A stretch of DNA of 10,397 nt from Candidatus Nomurabacteria bacterium. Lineage in GTDB: Bacteria > Patescibacteriota > Saccharimonadia > Saccharimonadales > Saccharimonadaceae. The notes under the pieces were generated by a model, which was not told the origin of the DNA, made no database searches, and was given only the letters and a program-made list of their open reading frames with translations. Position 1 is the stretch's first letter. Each line of letters opens with the position of its first letter. Position numbers and translations under genes: made by a program. Positions 665 through 8,994 of the stretch are shown in pieces. Location: the NCBI GenBank assembly GCA_031262565.1, contig JAISHL010000077.1, positions 1 through 10,397 of the forward strand, written 5' to 3'.

Positions 665-713
665 CTTCGTAATCCGATTAGCTTGATTGAGTATAATAGA
701 AATAATGCGTCCA

Positions 714-722
714 TGATATAAT
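714..722 (+). promoter_or_regulatory. Extended -10 promoter of the GIY-YIG gene (leaderless)
   Basis: TGA followed by a perfect TATAAT (717-722), six bases before the ATG at 729. A start point seven bases past the -10 would fall on the A of the ATG. No good -35 hexamer stands 16-18 bases upstream, as is usual for extended -10 promoters. Another TATAAT at 692-697 could act as a secondary site. Confidence 0.7.
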
Positions 723-728
723 TTTATA

Positions 729-1016
729 ATGAGACACGGTTATGTATATATTTTATTCAATAAACAAAATGGCACGCTATATGTCGGCGTAACGTCTAAT
801 TTAACGAAACGTGTTTACGAGCATAAAAATCATCTAGTGGAGGGTTTTACGGATAAGTATAATGTTGATAAGCTTGGCTACTATGAAGTTTTCGATGATA
901 TAACATCTGCAATTGCGCGCGAAAAACAGATTAAAGGTGGGTCGCGCAATAAGAAACTGGCGCTAATCGAATCTATCAATCCAAATTGGCACGATTTGTA
1001 TAATGATATTATTTAG
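729..1016 (+). CDS. Small GIY-YIG superfamily nuclease (COG2827/URI-like)
   Basis: A stand-alone GIY-YIG domain protein of 95 residues, the usual size for the single-domain COG2827-type family. Visible motifs are Y5-V6-Y7 (the GIY strand), Y18-V19-G20 (the YIG strand), R28 and H32 in the RVYEH helix, and the predicted metal-binding Glu65 in the AREKQIKG segment, followed by the family's basic RNKK stretch and a closing NPNW. All expected catalytic positions are present, so it is likely active as a metal-dependent DNA endonuclease; its target cannot be read from sequence. There is no Shine-Dalgarno: the -10 box ends six bases before ATG. It stands alone, with inverted copies of type A repeats on both sides (634-664 and 1024-1053), which raises the possibility that nuclease and repeats are connected. 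It stops in TAG, with no clear terminator other than the repeat hairpins. Confidence 0.9.
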   Translation: MRHGYVYILFNKQNGTLYVGVTSNLTKRVYEHKNHLVEGFTDKYNVDKLGYYEVFDDITSAIAREKQIKGGSRNKKLALIESINPNWHDLYNDII

Positions 1017-1023
1017 TTGAATA

Positions 1024-1053
1024 CTGGATTGCTTCGCTTTGCTCGCAATGACG
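1024..1053 (-). repeat. Interspersed hairpin repeat, type A, copy 3
   Basis: Reverse-oriented copy starting 8 bases after the GIY-YIG stop. It matches the 634-663 copy at about 27 of 30 bases on the opposite strand, so the nuclease gene sits between inverted repeats. Confidence 0.85.
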
Positions 1054-1111
1054 AATGCAGGGGTTATGTGTACTAGTTGTGGTTGGTTCGTGTTGTGCGA
1101 ACAGAATATTA

Positions 1112-1148
1112 CTGGATTGCCACGGCGATAAATCGCCTCGCAATGACG
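1112..1148 (-). repeat. Interspersed hairpin repeat, type B (variable inner stem)
   Basis: It shares the outer ends of type A (ATTGC ... GCAATGACG) but has a different core, a perfect inner inverted repeat GGCGAT-AA-ATCGCC at 1124-1137. Outer arms at 1116-1120 and 1140-1144 can also pair, giving a two-part hairpin. Confidence 0.8.
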
Positions 1149-1160
1149 CACATGAGTTTT

Positions 1161-1194
1161 GTCGTTGCGAGTGGAGCGAAGCAAAGCAATCTAG
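1161..1194 (+). repeat. Interspersed hairpin repeat, type A, copy 4, with internal 5-base duplication
   Basis: Forward copy (GTCGTTGCGAG ... GCAATCTAG) in which the GAAGCAA segment has become GAAGCAAAGCAA. That is a 5-base tandem duplication relative to the other copies, plus two substitutions (GTCGTT and GAGTGG). Confidence 0.8.
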
Positions 1195-1198
1195 GCAA

Positions 1199-1215
1199 AA
1201 CGAGTTTAGGATGAC
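1199..1215 (-). repeat. Half copy of interspersed repeat type C
   Basis: Matches the reverse complement of part of the complete type C hairpin at 5775-5800 with one mismatch in 17, starting in the conserved ACGAG loop. The partner arm is missing, so this is a remnant. Confidence 0.65.
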
Positions 1216-1253
1216 AGGGTAGGGTGACAAAAACAGACAATAAAATACAAACC

Positions 1254-1282
1254 AAAAACCGCGGATGAGAGAATCCGCGGTT
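1254..1282 (-). terminator. Rho-independent terminator of the pilin-like gene
   Basis: A perfect 10-bp stem (1257-1266 with 1273-1282, AACCGCGGAT/ATCCGCGGTT) and the loop GAGAGA, followed on the minus strand by TTTTT. It lies 28 bases beyond the pilin stop and is the strongest terminator in the window. Confidence 0.93.
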
Positions 1283-1309
1283 ATTAACTATTATAATAAA
1301 CTACTATAA

Positions 1310-1819
1310 TTAAATTAAATCAGTAAAGAAATTCATTATAGTCCAAGAAAGTAACGCAACGATCAAGCCGATAACTGCATAAAGAATTGTATTCTTAGCG
1401 CTTTCAACTTTCTTGCTGTCGCCACGTGACATTGTGTAGGTGATGCCGCCCCAAATAATGAAGACGACACAGAGAATGCCGATTATATATAGCATAGCGT
1501 TGATGATTGTGCCGACGGTAATGTCTGTGCCATTTGATATAGGTTTTCCATCTTTATCAACACATACATTTTCGCTTCCGTTAACCACTAAATATTTAGC
1601 TCCTGCTTGAGTATCACATTTACCTGCTGCGGAAGCTTGCTCTCCCGTCAGATCAGCGAAAGGTATTTCAGTGCCACCTACTGCATAGTTTCCTGTGCTA
1701 TTAGGGGAACCCGTTACTACTTTTACTGCTCCTGCTGGCACTGCTGCTCCAATCACAGCAAAAACCATCATCGGCACGACGAGGACTGCCCCTAGAATTT
1801 TTTTGGTTGTTGACTTCAT
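1310..1819 (-). CDS. VirB2/TrbC-like pilin-type secreted membrane protein
   Basis: A 169-residue protein with the layout of VirB2/TrbC-like pilins (the style often named Mbov_0395 family in CPR genomes). Residues 1-31 look like a signal peptide: K2, K6, K7, a hydrophobic core and an A-G-A cleavage site. A polar segment (32-100) follows, with two Cys (C68, C86) that could form a disulfide outside the cell. Two membrane helices come next (about 103-125 and 144-166), joined by a short basic loop SRGDSKKVESAKN. The second helix, ILYAVIGLIVALLSWTIMNF, is the most conserved part in CPR relatives. The role, inferred from the family, is pilus or type IV secretion/conjugation-like surface structure. 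No VirB4, VirB6 or relaxase lies nearby. A consensus promoter, a TAAGGAG site 10 bases before ATG and a strong terminator suggest an abundant monocistronic product. Start chosen from the Shine-Dalgarno and signal peptide. Confidence 0.8.
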   Translation of the reverse strand: MKSTTKKILGAVLVVPMMVFAVIGAAVPAGAVKVVTGSPNSTGNYAVGGTEIPFADLTGEQASAAGKCDTQAGAKYLVVNGSENVCVDKDGKPISNGTDITVGTIINAMLYIIGILCVVFIIWGGITYTMSRGDSKKVESAKNTILYAVIGLIVALLSWTIMNFFTDLI

Positions 1820-1829
1820 TTTATTATAA

Positions 1830-1836
1830 CTCCTTA
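1830..1836 (-). promoter_or_regulatory. Shine-Dalgarno of the pilin-like gene
   Basis: TAAGGAG on the minus strand, ten bases before the ATG at 1819. It fixes that start. Confidence 0.8.
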
Positions 1837-1862
1837 TGAATTAAGTTAGTGTTTACGGAAGC

Positions 1863-1891
1863 ATTATAGCGTTATCGTTACTGGTTGTCAA
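1863..1891 (-). promoter_or_regulatory. Near-perfect sigma70-type promoter of the pilin-like gene
   Basis: TTGACA (1891-1886), a 17-base spacer and TATAAT (1868-1863) on the minus strand, a full match to the primary sigma consensus. The predicted start is near 1856, giving a leader of about 37 bases. The -35 lies only two bases from the TGn element of the divergent GT4 promoter. Confidence 0.93.
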
Positions 1892-1893
1892 TA

Positions 1894-1902
1894 TGTTATA
1901 AT
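1894..1902 (+). promoter_or_regulatory. Extended -10 promoter of the GT4 gene (leaderless)
   Basis: TGT plus TATAAT (1897-1902), ending six bases before the ATG at 1909, with no good -35. The predicted transcript starts at the ATG. It is placed back to back with the pilin promoter. Confidence 0.75.
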
Positions 1903-1908
1903 AGATAA

Positions 1909-3063
1909 ATGAAAAAATTTGGCAAAGTCGCGATTGTGTGCGATTGGCTGACAGAGATCGGTGGGGCGGAGCAGGTGTTGAAAGCTGTGCATAAAATGTT
2001 TCCGCGTGCGCCGATTTACACTTCGCAATATCGACCGAAGCGGGCGGGTTTTCGCGAGGCGGATGTGCGGACGGGTTGGCTGAACATTTTGCCTGCTGGT
2101 TGGCGGCGGTTTATGCCTTTTTTGCGTGGTTTTTATTTCAAGCATTTGGATTTGTCGGAATATGATTTTGTGATCTCTGTCGTGAATGCTGAGGCAAAGG
2201 GCGTAAAAACGCGGGCTGGGGCGGTTCATGTGGCGTATTTACAGGGGCCGCCGACGCAGTATTATTGGGGATTATATGATCAATATTTGAAAAATCCGGG
2301 GTTTGGGAAGTTGAATTTTTTGGCGAGGTTTGGGCTGCGGGTTTTGGTGCGACCACTGAGGCGGGCGGATTATAAAGCGGCGCAAAAGCCCGATTTTTTG
2401 ATCGCGAACTCGAACTATGTTGCGGAGGAAGTTCGGAAATATTACGGGCGCGAGGCGGTGGTGGTTCATCCGCCTGTGGATGTGAAGAAAATTTTTGAGC
2501 TGGTTGATGCGGGTGGCGTGGTGAAAAAACAGACGCGAGCTGGTTCAAACGGTGGGCGAGCGGGTTTTGTGATCGCTGGGCGACAGGTGAGCTGGAAACG
2601 CGCGGATTTGGCGATGCGGGCGTGCATTGAGCTGAATGAGCCACTACTGGTGATTGGCGACGGACCCGAACATAAAAAGTTGGTGGAATTGGCGCGCGGA
2701 CATGAAAATATTAGGTTTCTGCCGAAATATAACGGAGTGGGTGAGATCGTGAAGTATTTTCGGGCGAGCGAAGGGTTTATTTTTCCGAGTTTGGAGCCGT
2801 TTGGAATCACGCCGATTGAGGCGCTGGCGACAGGTCTGCCTGTGATTGCGTTGAAAAAAGGCGGCGCGCTGGATTTCATTCGCGACGGCGAGAACGGTGT
2901 GTTTTTTGACGAGCAAAATGAGGAAAGTTTGATCAAAGCGATCCGAGAGTTTAAGAAAAAGAAATTTGATTCGCGGGCGGTGGCGGAATCTGCGAGAGAG
3001 TTTTCAAGAGAAAATTTTGAGAAGAAATTCAGCGATACTTTGGTGAAGTTGACTCAGAAATAG
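1909..3063 (+). CDS. Glycosyltransferase family 4 protein
   Basis: A GT-B fold, retaining glycosyltransferase that moves a sugar from a nucleotide-sugar donor onto a glycan or lipid acceptor, probably at the inner face of the membrane; donor and acceptor cannot be read. It is 384 residues, normal for GT4. The N-terminal Rossmann half starts VAIVCDWL-TEIGGAEQVL (Gly-rich acceptor-side loop, residues 8-24). The C-terminal donor half starts near FVIAGRQVSWKRADL (220-234). Next are LLVIGDGPE (246-254) and the donor-binding EPFGITPIE with Glu296 and Glu304 (E-x7-E), then GLPVIALKKGGALDFI and the DGENGVFF loop. No signal peptide or membrane helix is seen. The next gene, convergent and 9 bases away, is a sugar-phosphate transferase, so both likely serve surface polysaccharide assembly. 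It lacks a Shine-Dalgarno and looks leaderless. Confidence 0.92.
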   Translation: MKKFGKVAIVCDWLTEIGGAEQVLKAVHKMFPRAPIYTSQYRPKRAGFREADVRTGWLNILPAGWRRFMPFLRGFYFKHLDLSEYDFVISVVNAEAKGVKTRAGAVHVAYLQGPPTQYYWGLYDQYLKNPGFGKLNFLARFGLRVLVRPLRRADYKAAQKPDFLIANSNYVAEEVRKYYGREAVVVHPPVDVKKIFELVDAGGVVKKQTRAGSNGGRAGFVIAGRQVSWKRADLAMRACIELNEPLLVIGDGPEHKKLVELARGHENIRFLPKYNGVGEIVKYFRASEGFIFPSLEPFGITPIEALATGLPVIALKKGGALDFIRDGENGVFFDEQNEESLIKAIREFKKKKFDSRAVAESAREFSRENFEKKFSDTLVKLTQK

Positions 3064-3072
3064 AAAAGAAGA

Positions 3073-4488
3073 TTATTTCGCGCCGCGCCCAGTCAAAACC
3101 TGCCAAAACGTGCGGAACAAGATAGATAGATCCAGCCAAAATGACCAGTTTTGAACATAATAAACGTCGAGTTTTCGGCGCTGATCCCACGCCAAATCGC
3201 GTCGTCCAGAAATCTGCGCCAAACCTGTGATGCCAGATTTTACGTTCAAGATCGTGTGTTTTTTCTCAAAAGTGTTCAGTTCCTCAGGGATCAATGCGCG
3301 CGGACCGACCAGAGAAATATCGCCCTTGAAAACATTCCAAAGTTGCGGCAGCTCGTCGAGCGACGTTTTGCGCAAAAAACGACCCAGTTTCGTGATTCGC
3401 GGATCGTCATCCAGCTTGTCGCCATTCGCGCGATATTTTTTAATCAAATTCGGTTGCCCAATCATATCAAAAGCTTGCTCTGGTGTGGTGTTATCAAACT
3501 TCGCCCATTGCGATCGGAATTTATAGAGCTCAAATTTTTGACTGCCACGCGTCAGACGAGTGTGATGAAAAATCGGCGACCCGCCACCAAAAAGTTTTTC
3601 CAAGATCCAGATTATCAGAAAAATCGGCGACAAAATCACTAAACCAAGCCCGCTCACCGCCAGATCAAACAGCCGTTTTCCGACGCGCCCCCAGCCCAGT
3701 AAAGTCGTTTGACAAACGCTCATCATTGGCACATTTCCCATAAACAGCCCAATTTCAACGCGATCGGGCAGATCGTTAATTTCGCTCGGCACAAAATTAA
3801 ACGCAATAAAATTTTTCTGCGCAAAATCCAGAATCGTCGTGTCGATCACGGGCGCTTCGGGCGTGGCAATTTGGATAATCATATTTGGGTTGCTCGTCAA
3901 AATCGCCTCGGCGAAATCTTTATGTGTAACAAAACTTTTGCGTCGATCGCCGATGACAGAATGGATTTTATAACCGCTATTCGGCTGTTCAATATCGTCA
4001 AAAATTTGTCGTGCCACGTCGTTGTCGCCAATAATCATAATCCCATAAACCCCCAAACGACGGCGACGGCGAATAAAACGAATCAGATATAGAAAACCGC
4101 GCCCCAGACCGACTAAAATCAAGCTGATCCCGAAACCATATGACGGCACGAGTTTGGCGGGAAAAATCGGCTCGTTATGGAAATAATCAATAAAAATCAT
4201 GAACATCAGCGCACCAAAAGTGCCAGCGATCAGGCGTAAAACTTGCGTGCTTTTGCGAGCGGATTCTTGTTTATACGAACCAATCACGCTGAACCAGATG
4301 ACGGTAAACGGCAAAAGTAGCCAGATCATATACCAAAAGAAATTCCGCGCCGCGACGAAATCGTGAATCGGTGCGTCACTGATCTTGACTCGCAAAATGT
4401 AGGCGATGATATAAGAGGCAAAAACCGCGAACATGTCGCTCAACATCATCAGTCCGACGAAAAACAGGGAATTGCGTGCGCGTTTCAT
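3073..4488 (-). CDS. Polyprenyl-phosphate sugar-1-phosphate transferase (WbaP/WcaJ-like)
   Basis: Integral membrane phosphoglycosyl transferase expected to transfer a sugar-1-phosphate from a nucleotide sugar to undecaprenyl phosphate, the first membrane step of a surface glycan. It is 471 residues, the length of the large WbaP/WcaJ group. Membrane helices lie near 10-32, 48-70, 87-103 and 117-137. A basic stretch RFIRRRRR (137-144) and a CoA-binding-like Rossmann domain starting YGIMIIGDNDVARQI (148-162) follow. The C-terminal catalytic domain begins KRLFDLAVSGLGLVILSP (271-288, membrane re-entrant helix). It contains YKFRSQ (322-327), DDPRITKLGRFLRKTSLDELPQLWNV with the catalytic Asp378-Glu379 dyad, GDISLVGPR (389-397) and GITGLAQISGRR. 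All key motifs are intact. No clear Shine-Dalgarno or promoter is seen; a weak TGTTAAACT extended -10 sits at 4536-4528 on the minus strand. Confidence 0.93.
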   Translation of the reverse strand: MKRARNSLFFVGLMMLSDMFAVFASYIIAYILRVKISDAPIHDFVAARNFFWYMIWLLLPFTVIWFSVIGSYKQESARKSTQVLRLIAGTFGALMFMIFIDYFHNEPIFPAKLVPSYGFGISLILVGLGRGFLYLIRFIRRRRRLGVYGIMIIGDNDVARQIFDDIEQPNSGYKIHSVIGDRRKSFVTHKDFAEAILTSNPNMIIQIATPEAPVIDTTILDFAQKNFIAFNFVPSEINDLPDRVEIGLFMGNVPMMSVCQTTLLGWGRVGKRLFDLAVSGLGLVILSPIFLIIWILEKLFGGGSPIFHHTRLTRGSQKFELYKFRSQWAKFDNTTPEQAFDMIGQPNLIKKYRANGDKLDDDPRITKLGRFLRKTSLDELPQLWNVFKGDISLVGPRALIPEELNTFEKKHTILNVKSGITGLAQISGRRDLAWDQRRKLDVYYVQNWSFWLDLSILFRTFWQVLTGRGAK

Positions 4489-4581
4489 AAATTTTAAAAA
4501 TCAAATTTTAACTTTCGTAACAATATTAGTTTAACATAAAATGGCGAAAAAATCCATATACGCGATGCTGATAAAAATCAT

Positions 4582-4610
4582 TTGCATTTTGTAAGGTTTT
4601 ATGCTAAAAT
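4582..4610 (+). promoter_or_regulatory. Promoter of the coiled-coil membrane protein gene
   Basis: TTGCAT (4582-4587), a 17-base spacer and an extended -10 TGC-TAAAAT (4602-4610). The predicted start is near 4617, which excludes Met codons at 4582 and 4609 as starts. A small dyad, TGAT-AAAA-ATCA (4569-4580), lies just upstream of the -35 and could be an operator, but this is weak. Confidence 0.72.
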
Positions 4611-4638
4611 GTCTAATTACAATAAAAGAAAGGGATAT

Positions 4639-5628
4639 ATGATAAATAATGATTACCCAACAGGTGTAACCAGCGAACAAAAATATCAAAAAGCAAGTGG
4701 TAAATTAAAGACGGCGGCGTTTTGCGTCTGGGGTGTGGCGCTGTTAATCGCAGGAATTATCGTTTTTTCTAATTTGGCGAAGAGCGCGAGCTATGACGGG
4801 CAGATAAATGATGTCAAGGCAAAAATGGCTGGGATTGACCAAAAAATTACCGATGCTAATAAAAAATTGACTGACACCGAAGAAGAATGGCAGGATTTGA
4901 AAGATGAATATGAAGACAAGTTGGAGGAAGGCTTAGAAGAACTGGATGCGCAATATGGTGATCCTAGACCATCTGATGCTAAGTATAAAGAAAAGCAAAA
5001 TGCTCTAAAAAATTTAGAGGAAAAATATAGCACAAGCACTTCCTCGGATAATTACGAGGAATATTACGGATCGGGAGTCTTTGGTGGTAAAAAAGGTAAA
5101 GTTACAAAAATAGAGAAAGAGATAAGCGACCTAGAAAGCGAAAAAAGGAATATTGAATATAAAGAGCTTAGTCCGCTTGAAGGCAAAAAGAATTCAGTTG
5201 GACACGGGAACTTTTTTGCCATTGCGCCACTAATGTTCGGCGGTATGATCGGCTTGATGCTATTTATGACTTCCAAACAGCGTCATATCGCGGCATATCA
5301 AGCGCAAAGTATGGCTCCTGTGGCTGGCGAAACCATGGTTAAAATGAGTGGCTATGCGGGCGAGGCGATGAGCAACGTCGTTGATTCAATGGATAAAAGT
5401 GGCGCGCTTGACAAGATCGCTAAGATGGGTGTTAAGATGCAAAATAAAACCATGGACGAGATGAATACGACGGGAACTTACGACAAGATGGCGAACGCTA
5501 ACGTGAAAGTTACGAGCGCGACGATTGATAAGATGAACGAAACTGGTACGACAGAGAAGTCGGCGGAAATGGTTGGAAAATACGCCGAAAAAATCGCTGA
5601 CGGCATCAAAAAAGGTATGGAGAAGTAA
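4639..5628 (+). CDS. Unrecognised coiled-coil membrane protein with three C-terminal 24-residue repeats
   Basis: I do not recognise a named family. With the start at 4639 the product is 329 residues. An upstream in-frame ATG at 4582 lies inside the -35 box and one at 4609 precedes the predicted start point; a purine-rich GAAAGGG ends four bases before the ATG at 4639. Features in order: a polar N terminus; a membrane helix at about 26-46; a long charged Lys/Glu/Asp heptad-like coiled coil (about 52-130); a Ser/Tyr/Gly linker (131-152); a second coiled segment (153-182); a second membrane helix (about 192-210, rich in Phe/Met/Gly); and an amphipathic tail. Within the tail, 248-271, 272-295 and 296-319 are three consecutive 24-residue units with shared Asp at position 2, Met at 4 and Gly at 8. 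Two helices around one coiled coil suggest both ends face the same side, with the coil on the other. It could be a scaffold or envelope-spanning protein. Function unknown. Confidence 0.8.
   Translation: MINNDYPTGVTSEQKYQKASGKLKTAAFCVWGVALLIAGIIVFSNLAKSASYDGQINDVKAKMAGIDQKITDANKKLTDTEEEWQDLKDEYEDKLEEGLEELDAQYGDPRPSDAKYKEKQNALKNLEEKYSTSTSSDNYEEYYGSGVFGGKKGKVTKIEKEISDLESEKRNIEYKELSPLEGKKNSVGHGNFFAIAPLMFGGMIGLMLFMTSKQRHIAAYQAQSMAPVAGETMVKMSGYAGEAMSNVVDSMDKSGALDKIAKMGVKMQNKTMDEMNTTGTYDKMANANVKVTSATIDKMNETGTTEKSAEMVGKYAEKIADGIKKGMEK
5380..5595 (+). repeat. Three tandem 72-bp units coding for 24-residue repeats
   Basis: Residues 248-271, 272-295 and 296-319 of the coiled-coil protein align without gaps. 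The starts read VDSMDKSG, MDEMNTTG and IDKMNETG. The DNA is diverged, so the repeat is clearer in protein than in bases. Confidence 0.7.
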
Positions 5629-5657
5629 AATTATAGGGAACGATTTTTGTTTTCGTC

Positions 5658-5689
5658 ATTGCCCGACTCGTTCGGGTAATTCAGTTTTT
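5658..5689 (+). terminator. Repeat-derived hairpin (type C, stem variant 1), possible terminator of the coiled-coil gene
   Basis: Nine pairs (5658-5666 with 5672-5680, one G-U) around the loop CTCGT, then TTTTT at 5685-5689, 30 bases beyond the stop codon. It belongs to the CTCGT-loop hairpin family also seen at 5779-5799. The four bases between stem and T run make it a moderate terminator. Confidence 0.55.
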
Positions 5690-5693
5690 ATCT

Positions 5694-5717
5694 GTCATTG
5701 CGAGCAGAGTAATCTAG
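5694..5717 (+). repeat. Interspersed repeat type A, shortened copy
   Basis: GTCATTGCGAGC ... AATCTAG as in the other type A copies, but about 5 bases shorter in the middle, which removes the GAAGC segment. Confidence 0.75.
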
Positions 5718-5724
5718 TGGCTTT

Positions 5725-5760
5725 GTCATCGCGAGACGACTTGTCGTCGTGGCGATCCAG
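5725..5760 (+). repeat. Interspersed repeat type B with another inner stem
   Basis: Outer arms ATCGC (5728-5732) and GCGAT (5752-5756) enclose a perfect inner stem ACGAC-TT-GTCGT (5736-5747). The frame is that of the copy at 1112-1148, but the inner stem differs, and the outer arm has changed on both sides (ATTGC/GCAAT to ATCGC/GCGAT), a compensated change. Confidence 0.78.
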
Positions 5761-5774
5761 AGCAACTAAACTAG

Positions 5775-5800
5775 TGTCATCCTGAACTCGTTTCAGGATC
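5775..5800 (+). repeat. Interspersed repeat type C (CTCGT-loop hairpin, stem variant 2)
   Basis: A perfect 8-bp stem ATCCTGAA (5779-5786) / TTCAGGAT (5792-5799) with the loop CTCGT. The same loop caps an unrelated stem at 5658-5680. Confidence 0.82.
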
Positions 5801-5820
5801 TATAATGCATAAATAATGGA

Positions 5821-5840
5821 GATTCCGAAACGAGTATCGG
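5821..5840 (-). repeat. Degenerate type C repeat
   Basis: CCGA (5825-5828) and TCGG (5837-5840) flank a segment containing ACGAG, the complement of the CTCGT loop. The stem is short and imperfect, so this looks like a decayed copy. Confidence 0.5.
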
Positions 5841-5920
5841 CTTCACATCCTTCAGTCCTTAGTTTATTAAGAATAAATTCGCATGAATCAATTTTCCCCA
5901 GCTAGAATGATAAAAAGTCG

Positions 5921-5955
5921 CTAGATTGCCACGTCGCTACGCTACTCGCAACGAC
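5921..5955 (-). repeat. Interspersed repeat type A/B, reverse copy
   Basis: CTAGATTGCCAC at the left and CTCGCAACGAC at the right, the usual ends, with a GTCGCTACGCTA core that forms no perfect inner stem. Confidence 0.75.
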
Positions 5956-5961
5956 AAAAAC

Positions 5962-5977
5962 ACGCTATATATAGCGT
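5962..5977. repeat. Perfect 16-bp palindrome
   Basis: ACGCTATATATAGCGT is its own reverse complement. It sits between the last repeat copy and the Fic terminator, without a T run of its own. Confidence 0.7.
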
Positions 5978-5987
5978 ATAAAAAGCT

Positions 5988-6008
5988 AAAAACGCGACAA
6001 GTGCCGCG
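5988..6008 (-). terminator. Rho-independent terminator downstream of the Fic gene
   Basis: On the minus strand CGCGGC-ACTT-GTCGCG (six pairs, one G-U) is followed by TTTTT. It lies about 100 bases past the Fic stop. I see nothing else in the AT-rich stretch between 6009 and 6111. Confidence 0.65.
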
Positions 6009-6111
6009 CCGCTCGGTCTCATAAATACGACCTAAAAACCACAAAAAACCAATTTTCCGCCAAACTGGAATCTTTTAAAGTTGATACTATGAATTTAAAT
6101 GCGAAAAATAG

Positions 6112-7149
6112 TTATTTATTTTGTGCATAAAATCCGTTTTTGAGTGGAGTGCCGTTTTCATAAGTATGAGCGGTGGGATTTTTAAAAATATCAATCATTG
6201 CTCCAAATGACGCCATTTTTAACTGGTCGTTTATTTCAATAAAGCGTTTTGCCTGTTCGTGATTGAGCGTGATTGCGCCATTCTGTTCATTATCATACAT
6301 ATACGTGCCGTTTTCAATCTCGGCGGGCGGTATTTTGAATGTTTCATCTTCTTTTGAAAGCATATGTATCGTCATAATATTAAAAGGACAAATAAACGAA
6401 CCTGTATCATTTGCACAGATACTTTTAATTCTGTCAATATCCTTTACTGATAATGATTTAATTGTCTCGTCGTCAAATTGAGGTTCTACCCATGGAAGAG
6501 CAGACCTGATATTATTTGCCCCGAGCCGTTCGAGCTCTGAGTCAAAGGCAACAAAATTAGCAAAGCCACTTGTAGCATAGGTGTTAGCATTTAAATATGA
6601 CTGGATTTCCTTGCGCCCAGTAGTGGCAGTACCGTTTTGCGTGTCGTTGTCGTGTTCCGTGAGCACCTTAATTGCTTCTTCATCAATTCGCTCGCCACTA
6701 AGTATGTGATGCCAAACTCGCATTGAGCGCCCGTTGCCATCACCAAATAAATGCACCGCACCAAGAATATTATACGTTAAAACCCCACGATCTTTGGGCG
6801 ACAAATCCTTCAGCGCGTCAAAAGCCATTTCAACGACTTCCTCCTTGTGTTCCGTGGATATAGGAAGAAGATTATCTCCAACGTATACAGCCCCCCCATC
6901 AATCTCGTGCTGCTCTGGTGAAATATTACGGAACAAGGCATTTAATCGGACTAAATGCACCTTAAAATCTTTATATGTTCCGTTTTGAATTAGGTCTTCT
7001 ACTGTTTCGGGGTTATTTAATCCTGTTTCCATTAGGTAATCAGACGCTGTCTTTGCCGGATTTTGTTCGAATTCGCTATTGGGTTCAACTGTGTTTTGTT
7101 CCAATTCGTTAGTTACTAATTGATTACTTTGGTATGAAGGTTTTTCCAT
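6112..7149 (-). CDS. Fic domain protein (predicted AMP/NMP transferase)
   Basis: Fic enzymes usually transfer AMP, or another phosphate-containing group, from a nucleotide to a hydroxyl side chain of a target protein. The full active-site motif is present at residues 133-144: H133-L-F-G-D137-G-N139-G-R141-S-M-R144, matching HxFx[D/E]GNGRxxR, with the catalytic His intact. An ISTEHKEEVVEMAFDAL helix (97-113), likely the Fic-core flap and first helix, precedes it. Residues 1-50 are Gln/Asn/Glu-rich and probably disordered; 200-345 form a region I do not recognise. No [S/T]xxxE[G/N] self-inhibition motif is visible, and no small antitoxin ORF adjoins the gene. No signal peptide or membrane helix is seen. 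It is leaderless (extended -10 six bases before ATG) and follows the tRNA-Asn gene. It looks somewhat less GC-rich than its neighbours, which could mean transfer. Toxin, regulator and host-directed effector are all open. Confidence 0.88.
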   Translation of the reverse strand: MEKPSYQSNQLVTNELEQNTVEPNSEFEQNPAKTASDYLMETGLNNPETVEDLIQNGTYKDFKVHLVRLNALFRNISPEQHEIDGGAVYVGDNLLPISTEHKEEVVEMAFDALKDLSPKDRGVLTYNILGAVHLFGDGNGRSMRVWHHILSGERIDEEAIKVLTEHDNDTQNGTATTGRKEIQSYLNANTYATSGFANFVAFDSELERLGANNIRSALPWVEPQFDDETIKSLSVKDIDRIKSICANDTGSFICPFNIMTIHMLSKEDETFKIPPAEIENGTYMYDNEQNGAITLNHEQAKRFIEINDQLKMASFGAMIDIFKNPTAHTYENGTPLKNGFYAQNK

Positions 7150-7155
7150 GCGTAA

Positions 7156-7185
7156 ATCATAGCATAAGTTTCATATTTCGCACAA
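7156..7185 (-). promoter_or_regulatory. Extended -10 promoter of the Fic gene (leaderless)
   Basis: On the minus strand: TTGTGC (7185-7180), an 18-base spacer, and a -10 TATGAT (7161-7156) preceded by TGC (7164-7162). The box ends six bases before the ATG at 7149. The -35 begins about ten bases after the tRNA terminator. Confidence 0.7.
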
Positions 7186-7429: not shown

Positions 7430-7454
7430 ATCCGCATATAAGGGAGGGAGTTTT

Positions 7455-8246
7455 ATGGCGAAAAAATTTATCATCGGTAACTGGAAAATGAATCTGAACG
7501 TGCATGAGTCGTCTTTGTTTGCGGCGAAACTGGCGCAGGAAGTTCCGACGTATCGTGACGTGACGACGGCGATTTGCCCATCATTTTTAGCGTTGCAGCC
7601 GTTATCTTTACAGGTCAATCACCGCCAGATGAAACTCGGCGCGCAAAACTGCTATTGGCGCGATTCAGGTGCTTTTACTGGGGAGATTTCGGCGACGCAA
7701 TTGCGCGGTTTGGCTCAATACGTTTTAATCGGACATTCCGAGCGACGCAATATTTTTTCTGAGGGCGATCGTGAAATTCGCTTCAAAGTGCAGGCGGCGT
7801 TGCGAAACTGTTTGACCCCTGTGCTATGTGTTGGCGAAACGGCGTTGGAGCGCAAAGACGGCGACACTGAACACGTTTTGAATGATCAAGTTGTAAGTGG
7901 ACTTTTGAACGTTAGTAGCGAGGAGATCAGCGAAGTTTTGATTGCTTATGAGCCAGTTTGGGCGATCGGCACGGGTGAAACGGCGGGTCCAGAAGATATT
8001 GAAAAAGCCATGAAGATTATTCGCGCGCAAGTGTCGCATTTATTCGGTCGTGAAGCCAGTAAAAAAGTGAGTTTGCTGTATGGTGGCAGCGTTAAATTGG
8101 ACAATGCGGCGAGCATATTGAGCGCCAAGGGCGTTGATGGATTACTAATCGGTGGTGCTTCACTGATCGCACCAGAGTTTGCTGGCATGGTTAAAATTGC
8201 AGGTGAACTCGCCAAAGAAGAGGCAAAAAACGAGGTTAAAGAATGA
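7455..8246 (+). CDS. tpiA: Triosephosphate isomerase
   Basis: Glycolytic and gluconeogenic enzyme interconverting dihydroxyacetone phosphate and glyceraldehyde 3-phosphate in the cytosol. The start at 7455 follows a strong Shine-Dalgarno; an in-frame TTG at 7401 belongs to the -35 box and is rejected. The product is 263 residues, slightly above the usual 250 because of a charged tail (EEAKNEVKE). Active-site residues are all present: N9 and K11 in GNWKMN; H94 in IGHSERR (91-97); the catalytic base E166 in AYEPVWAIGTG (164-174), with the flexible lid right after it; the phosphate-binding YGGSV (209-213); and the final GLLIGGASL (229-237). It ends in TGA overlapping the next gene (ATGA), so the two are translationally coupled. 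No other glycolytic gene is in the window. Confidence 0.98.
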   Translation: MAKKFIIGNWKMNLNVHESSLFAAKLAQEVPTYRDVTTAICPSFLALQPLSLQVNHRQMKLGAQNCYWRDSGAFTGEISATQLRGLAQYVLIGHSERRNIFSEGDREIRFKVQAALRNCLTPVLCVGETALERKDGDTEHVLNDQVVSGLLNVSSEEISEVLIAYEPVWAIGTGETAGPEDIEKAMKIIRAQVSHLFGREASKKVSLLYGGSVKLDNAASILSAKGVDGLLIGGASLIAPEFAGMVKIAGELAKEEAKNEVKE

Positions 8247-8883: not shown

Positions 8884-8994
8884 TTACAACATACATATTT
8901 AGTATGCGCATTTTAACTTGTGCGTCAGTCGGAAAATTAAGCGACTGTTAGTAAAATTCTAAAACTGAACAAAAAATTTAACCATAGGAGGAAA

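Follow-up and report, generated by a model that had tools for sequence, protein, structure and literature searches.

Extended -10 elements set against coding sequences point to leaderless or near-leaderless genes beside Shine-Dalgarno starts in a family of Saccharibacteria

In a 10,397-nucleotide stretch of the draft genome of a Candidatus Nomurabacteria bacterium of the family Saccharimonadaceae (GCA_031262565.1, contig JAISHL010000077.1; hereafter the window), three genes, predicted to encode a GIY-YIG protein, a family 4 glycosyltransferase (GT4) and a Fic-like protein, are preceded by an extended -10 element. In each case TGn and a TATAAT-like hexamer end exactly six bases before the ATG, a spacing that we denote N6. 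We propose, with a probability of roughly 0.87, that these are sigma-70 extended -10 promoters lying against coding sequence, and that they would give rise to leaderless or near-leaderless mRNAs in a genome that also uses Shine-Dalgarno starts. The coexistence of two classes of start had been suggested in a preliminary description of the window, and is supported here by a genome-wide excess of the N6 spacing, by -35 and -1 signals, and by a contrast among orthologues of the GT4 gene.

Adjacent -10 elements in the window and the draft genome

The sites and genes concerned are as follows.

714..722, plus strand: extended -10 TGaTATAAT of the GIY-YIG gene (sequence reading and motif scan)
723..728, plus strand: six-base spacer of the GIY-YIG gene; the base at -1 is A, where a pyrimidine is usual
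729..1016, plus strand: GIY-YIG gene (PF01541, by Pfam), ATG at 729
692..697, plus strand: additional TATAAT, without TGn, before the GIY-YIG gene; it could give a transcript with a leader from about 704
1894..1902, plus strand: extended -10 TGtTATAAT of the GT4 gene, then six bases to the ATG at 1909
1909..3063, plus strand: GT4 gene (PF00534, by Pfam and orthologue comparison)
7156..7164, minus strand: extended -10 TGcTATGAT of the Fic-like gene, then six bases to the ATG at 7149 (sequence and scan)
6112..7149, minus strand: Fic-like gene (HLFGDGNGR by eye; PF02661 at E=0.024, under the cut-off)

The geometry in the preliminary description proved exact to the base, and the lack of a Shine-Dalgarno sequence was confirmed at all three starts. 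The pattern TGNTATRATN6ATG matches the window three times, always at these genes, while 200 dinucleotide shuffles of the window gave a mean of 0.01 matches and never reached three. When one mismatch was allowed in TATAAT there were again three matches, against 0.29 by shuffling, and again none of the 200 shuffles reached that number. The ATGs at 729 and 1909 are secure, since the GIY-YIG domain is matched from residue 4 onwards and most full-length GT4 relatives match from somewhere within residues 1-6; no start codon comes before the ATG at 7149 in its frame. The name of the Fic-like gene is based on HLFGDGNGR, which we take to be the Fic signature, together with sub-threshold matches, those to Fic proteins in the PDB being at E=0.17 and worse. 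A tRNA gene (RF00005; 7246-7317, minus strand) precedes the Fic-like gene by about 97 bases and is read in the same direction.

The preliminary description had also proposed a genome-wide scan for the N6 spacing, and the excess that it looked for is present. The draft genome (587,657 bases in 89 contigs, 70.85% complete, with the window as contig 68) contains 57 instances of TATAAT-N6-ATG, against 8 in the reversed control. Across spacings of 2-16 bases there are 227 TATAAT-ATG pairs in all, and the other 14 spacings average 12.1, making the N6 excess 4.7-fold (binomial p=2e-18).

At the level of genes, we scored exact TATAAT, or TGn-TATAAT with up to one mismatch, before genes of at least 100 codons in two sets of contigs. 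Set B, whose contigs were picked by number, has an N6 site at 16 of 117 genes where 0.97 were expected from the mean at N12-N40 (Poisson p=1e-14). Its counts at other spacings are 3 at N0-N1, none at N2-N5, 7 at N7, 3 at N8, 8 at N9 and 2 at N10. Net of background, N6 sites stand before about 13% of genes, and sites at N6-N9 before up to about 26%, a figure in which the same gene can be counted at two spacings. Set A, which is biased by its choice, has an N6 site at 33 of 131 genes. Four rearranged hexamers never occurred at N6 in either set; elsewhere in set A, TAATAT was found 5 times at N4 and TTATAA 4 times at N7. RNA polymerase starts about 7 bases downstream of the -10, and a nearer start codon would not be transcribed whole; the sharp lower edge of the distribution at N6 would thus reflect a promoter requirement.

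Independent promoter signals and Shine-Dalgarno starts

To describe the anatomy of these sites we drew on sets A and B and the window for 49 N6 genes with 80 codons or more, a sample that is partly biased and unsuited for rates. Matches to TTGACA of at least four of six bases peak at -36 (9 genes) and -35 (10 genes), whereas offsets from -60 to -43 average 2.4 each. Such a hexamer stands at one or other position in 18 of the 49 genes, 17 bases from the -10, and T occupies -35 in 69% of them. A pyrimidine just before the transcription start is the usual pattern, and 42 of the 49 N6 genes have one at -1, compared with 118 of 217 other starts (p=4e-5). TGn precedes the hexamer in 45 of 49, partly through the selection rule. 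The same preference at -1 recurs in 53 related loci around rpoD, mostly from Candidatus Saccharibacteria and some labelled just "bacterium" or "Patescibacteria group bacterium", where 31 of 36 N6 starts have a pyrimidine; in the 764 genes of these loci, sites at N6-N9 total 119 against 12.4 expected. The window carries the organism's own rpoD, with sigma-70 regions 1.2, 2, 3 and 4.

The remaining genes of the window with readable starts form the contrast class, and, as the preliminary description had it, their leaders contain Shine-Dalgarno sequences of good to modest quality.

1830..1835, minus strand: AAGGAG, good, pilin gene (ATG 1819)
4629..4634, plus strand: AAAGGG, modest, coiled-coil gene (ATG 4639)
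7441..7450, plus strand: AGGGAGGGAG, good, tpiA (ATG 7455)
8986..8991, plus strand: AGGAGG, good, rpoD (ATG 8995)

By reading, the sugar-transferase gene (ATG 4488, minus strand) has neither a -10 nor a Shine-Dalgarno signal; an open reading frame at 8243 overlaps the stop of tpiA. Shine-Dalgarno matches of at least four bases were found at none of the 49 N6 starts, an absence that arises largely by construction because the -10 occupies that space; 136 of 217 other genes have such a match at their best start (shifted control, 86 of 217). No 16S rRNA was found in the draft genome. A search in eight relatives gave matches in three, two of which include the 3' end; in both it reads ACCTCCTTT, with CCTCC. 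Since CCTCC is kept in these two relatives, Shine-Dalgarno pairing should be available.

Gene order, reach across relatives and gene functions

The GT4 gene has matches in 94 of 121 family genomes, and its start was read at 69 loci in 68 of these genomes (29 of 30 first loci, L146 being excluded as it lacks a start, and 40 further stretches). At 41 loci the gene lies directly behind a sugar-transferase gene, and none of these has a -10 at N6-8. Among the 28 loci with no sugar transferase directly upstream, a -10 stands at N6 in 6 and at N7-8 in 9, giving 15 of 28, in 12 genera (Fisher p=7e-8 with loci treated as independent, which same-genus loci are not). Some of these 28 are not at the head of an operon: L128 and L129, for example, come after another long open frame. 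The window's own GT4 gene stands by itself, with the sugar transferase on the opposite strand; the same-genus orthologue reads TGATACAAT-N6-ATG. An earlier operon rule, which accepted any same-strand frame of 180 nucleotides ending nearby, was too loose and was replaced by the rule used above. It had placed 51 starts without a near site, 6 at N7-9 and 3 at N6 in the operon class, and 3 at N6, 3 at N7-9, 1 with another site and 2 with none in the first-gene class.

The GIY-YIG gene is rarer, with matches in 12 of 121 family genomes including its own, at 13 loci. A -10 at exactly N6 was found at 5 of the 13 including the window, once before a GTG, and the upstream DNA of these loci is unlike by eye. 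The return of one geometry in DNA that otherwise differs speaks for selection acting on it. Separately, GIY-YIG orthologues adjoin dispersed palindromic repeats (tcatcctgaacttgtttcaggatc, gcgaagcaatc), clearly at 8 and partially at 2 of the 13 loci by eye, as if the nuclease were paired with a repeat family; no fitting description of such a pairing was found among the literature matches listed.

510, 650, 1027, 1115 and 5924 in the window, and loci L195-L207: palindromic repeats near GIY-YIG genes

We then asked how far the N6 spacing extends, using 62 family genomes, one for each of 61 genera plus a second of the window's genus. N6 accounts for 2,233 of 12,542 pairs, a 3.0-fold excess, and 41 of the 62 genomes reach p<0.001 individually. 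Single genomes range from 1.0-fold (G275) to 11-fold (G245); in the latter, 126 of 285 TATAAT-ATG pairs at spacings 2-16 fall at exactly N6, the strongest signal of the family sample, in which genera g215 and g3 stand out. Across 229 genomes of the phylum outside the family, the excess is 2.0-fold (5,570 of 44,834), with 203 genomes above 1 and 92 at p<0.001. Elsewhere in the window's order the excess is weak, at 1.0 to 2.1 in 7 genomes. When 87 genomes from 27 genera with at least two sampled members were compared, genus means differed about sixfold, the lowest being about 1.5 (g6) and the highest about 8.6 (g215). The between-genus share of the variance in log-excess was 85%, a value that none of 2,000 label shuffles reached. 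The degree of use therefore looks inherited and appears to change between genera. Farther afield, three Bacillota loci have no site at N6 or N7 and one at N8, and 21 loci from Actinomycetota and similar groups among the rpoD matches show no clear N6 peak with the rule used and so provide no positive control. The nearest named relatives by rpoD are the metagenome-assembled genomes Th196P3bin19 (73%) and Co191P4bin22 (69%), which we presume to be from termite gut.

A Pfam scan covered every N6 gene of the sample beyond the window's three (46 genes, of which 10 had no match at 0.001) and bears on what these genes do. Replication and information processing are represented by DNA polymerase I, a DnaX-like clamp loader, DnaG primase and a class II (D/K/N) tRNA synthetase, and metabolism by guanylate kinase, ribulose-phosphate epimerase, two class V aminotransferases and a pyruvate phosphate dikinase-like protein. 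Competence, envelope and division functions include a ComEC-type protein, an Mg-chelatase (ComM-like) protein, a Mur ligase and DivIC. Also present are a TsaD-family domain, a response regulator, transporters, bacterial PH domains, DNA methylases and a protein with a pilin-type N-terminal motif. The strong Shine-Dalgarno genes of set B, 19 of 37 of which were scanned for contrast, are likewise mixed and include ribosomal protein L6, EF-Ts, GreA, RecJ, LDH, FtsX and FemAB. Core functions are thus prominent among the N6 genes, and the sample suggests no special functional class when the functions listed are compared. The idea that the leaderless set is made of accessory or surface genes, an impression based on three genes in one window, was accordingly abandoned.

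One N6 start, at an open reading frame that looks MscL-like by eye, adjoins a gene for a 136-residue protein elsewhere in the draft genome (L001:7949-8356, minus strand, contig C1). After a start that resembles a signal peptide by eye, this protein has a ubiquitin domain (PF00240, E=1.8e-27) whose end differs from the usual RGG; it is possibly a secreted ubiquitin-like protein in a Saccharibacterium.

Competing explanations and biological meaning

Our explanation of these observations is that RNA polymerase with RpoD, bound at the extended -10, would start on the A of the ATG or at most three bases away. The resulting 5'-terminal AUG would then be bound directly by the ribosome and initiator tRNA without Shine-Dalgarno pairing, a mode of binding taken from work in other bacteria (PMC9031893, PMC12340547). 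Such a promoter would suit genes that have to be transcribed on their own, in keeping with its absence from the GT4 gene behind a sugar transferase. The geometry, the genome-wide excess and its sharp cut-off below N6, the signals at -35 and -1, and the recurrence at orthologues were read directly from sequence; from them we infer where the 5' ends lie, that RpoD acts here and that translation begins at a 5'-AUG.

Several observations weigh against this explanation. Within the window, the second TATAAT lies 25 bases upstream and could give the GIY-YIG gene a leader of about 25 nucleotides; two of the three genes have A rather than a pyrimidine at -1, so that a start one base upstream is possible for them; none of the three has a good -35 by eye; and a search of the 120 other family genomes gave no match to the Fic-like gene. 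Among orthologues, 13 of the 28 GT4 loci without a sugar transferase show no adjacent -10 by our rule, one of the 15 positives (L130) lies closely behind another long open frame, and 8 of the 13 GIY-YIG loci lack an N6 site. The promoter anatomy is also uneven, as the best -35 at N6 in the 53 related loci is weak and leaves a gap of 20 bases, and the N7 starts of the genome itself (n=12) have no sensible -35. Finally, 9 of the 49 N6 starts have an earlier start codon in the same open frame, and some of them, such as L026:1377, may be wrong starts. In polA, with residues numbered from the N6 ATG, the Pfam match sets in at residue 10, which suits that ATG.

The closest competitor is a variant of our own explanation, in which the -10 elements are real and transcription mostly begins 1-3 nucleotides before the ATG, leaving a minimal leader. 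The two window genes with A at -1 fit it, as does the excess at longer spacings, with 14, 5 and 11 sites at N7, N8 and N9 against 2.2 expected in the full sample from this genome, and 39, 27 and 17 against 3.1 in the related loci. The 11 N9 starts of the genome, a smaller second peak, mostly have A-Y-T before the ATG and a -35 displaced by the same three bases, which together fit a three-base leader. In the full sample, however, N6 is by far the highest peak (46), with the pyrimidine at -1 that is expected before a start site, and we consider it rather unlikely that the minimal leader is the prevailing form, though single genes may carry leaders of 1-3 nucleotides.

Very improbable, in our view, is that the A+T-rich block is a translation signal, an S1 or other non-Shine-Dalgarno site, within ordinary leaders from promoters farther upstream. 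Sites of this kind are discussed for other phyla (PMC5397173, PMC9581028), but a translation signal would not explain why TGnTATAAT keeps to one spacing and is almost missing at N2-N5, why it has a -35-like partner 17 bases off in this genome, or why it is absent from all 41 GT4 starts behind a sugar transferase. Chance, by which A+T-rich intergenic DNA yields -10 look-alikes and the three in the window are luck, merits almost no weight: TATAAT is common enough to give about 12 pairs at each other spacing, but the 57 at N6 and the shuffles of the window refute it for the genome-wide excess, while a single site can still arise in this way (about 1 per spacing per 117 genes).

Promoter-adjacent starts of this type have precedents. 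In the literature, TA-led leaderless genes of bacteria go back to at least 2011 and Zheng et al. (PMC3160421), who report a TATAAT-like signal about 12 bp before the start codon, mixed with Shine-Dalgarno genes, with a TG extension in several low-GC genomes and without restriction to accessory genes. The lineage differs, being Patescibacteria here; the main text of that report names neither TM7 nor Saccharimonas, and one of its 207 genomes is given as "unclassified". In Deinococcus-Thermus, a -10 motif about 6-7 bp before the open reading frame, with no pathway bias, was shown experimentally to act as a -10 region (PMC12340547). In D. radiodurans, according to the same report, TANNNT precedes nearly one third of genes, whereas the element described here is a nearly full TATAAT with TGn and is known from sequence. 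Leaderless transcripts are likewise common in mycobacteria, where starts were mapped rather than read from sequence (PMC3898074, PMC4633059), and gene callers such as GeneMarkS-2 model leaderless genes (PMC9581028). The core functions among our N6 genes agree with the lack of pathway bias in PMC12340547 and with the finding of Zheng et al. that information genes are relatively more leaderless and translation genes less so. No description of leaderless genes in Saccharibacteria or Patescibacteria was found among the open-access literature matches listed, which is weak evidence of absence; where papers touch both subjects, leaderless work appears in their reference lists or, in one that names YchF, as a passing mention of leaderless translation. 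Most likely the mechanism is one known from other bacteria, serving both core and accessory genes here, and what would be new is the lineage.

A broader proposition is that this Saccharibacteria family expresses its genes to a major extent by leaderless initiation, a mode inherited at the level of the genus, gained where genes stand outside operons and need a promoter of their own, and extending to core replication genes, perhaps with ribosomes tuned to it; we regard the odds on this joint claim as even. The variation between genera and the link to gene order are what make it worth following. Close genera that differ, and the same gene with or without an adjacent -10, would offer a natural system for studying how the mode of initiation changes, and why. 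If a sizeable share of genes is leaderless, gene callers based on Shine-Dalgarno sequences would misplace starts, and expression cassettes built on them would fail in these bacteria.

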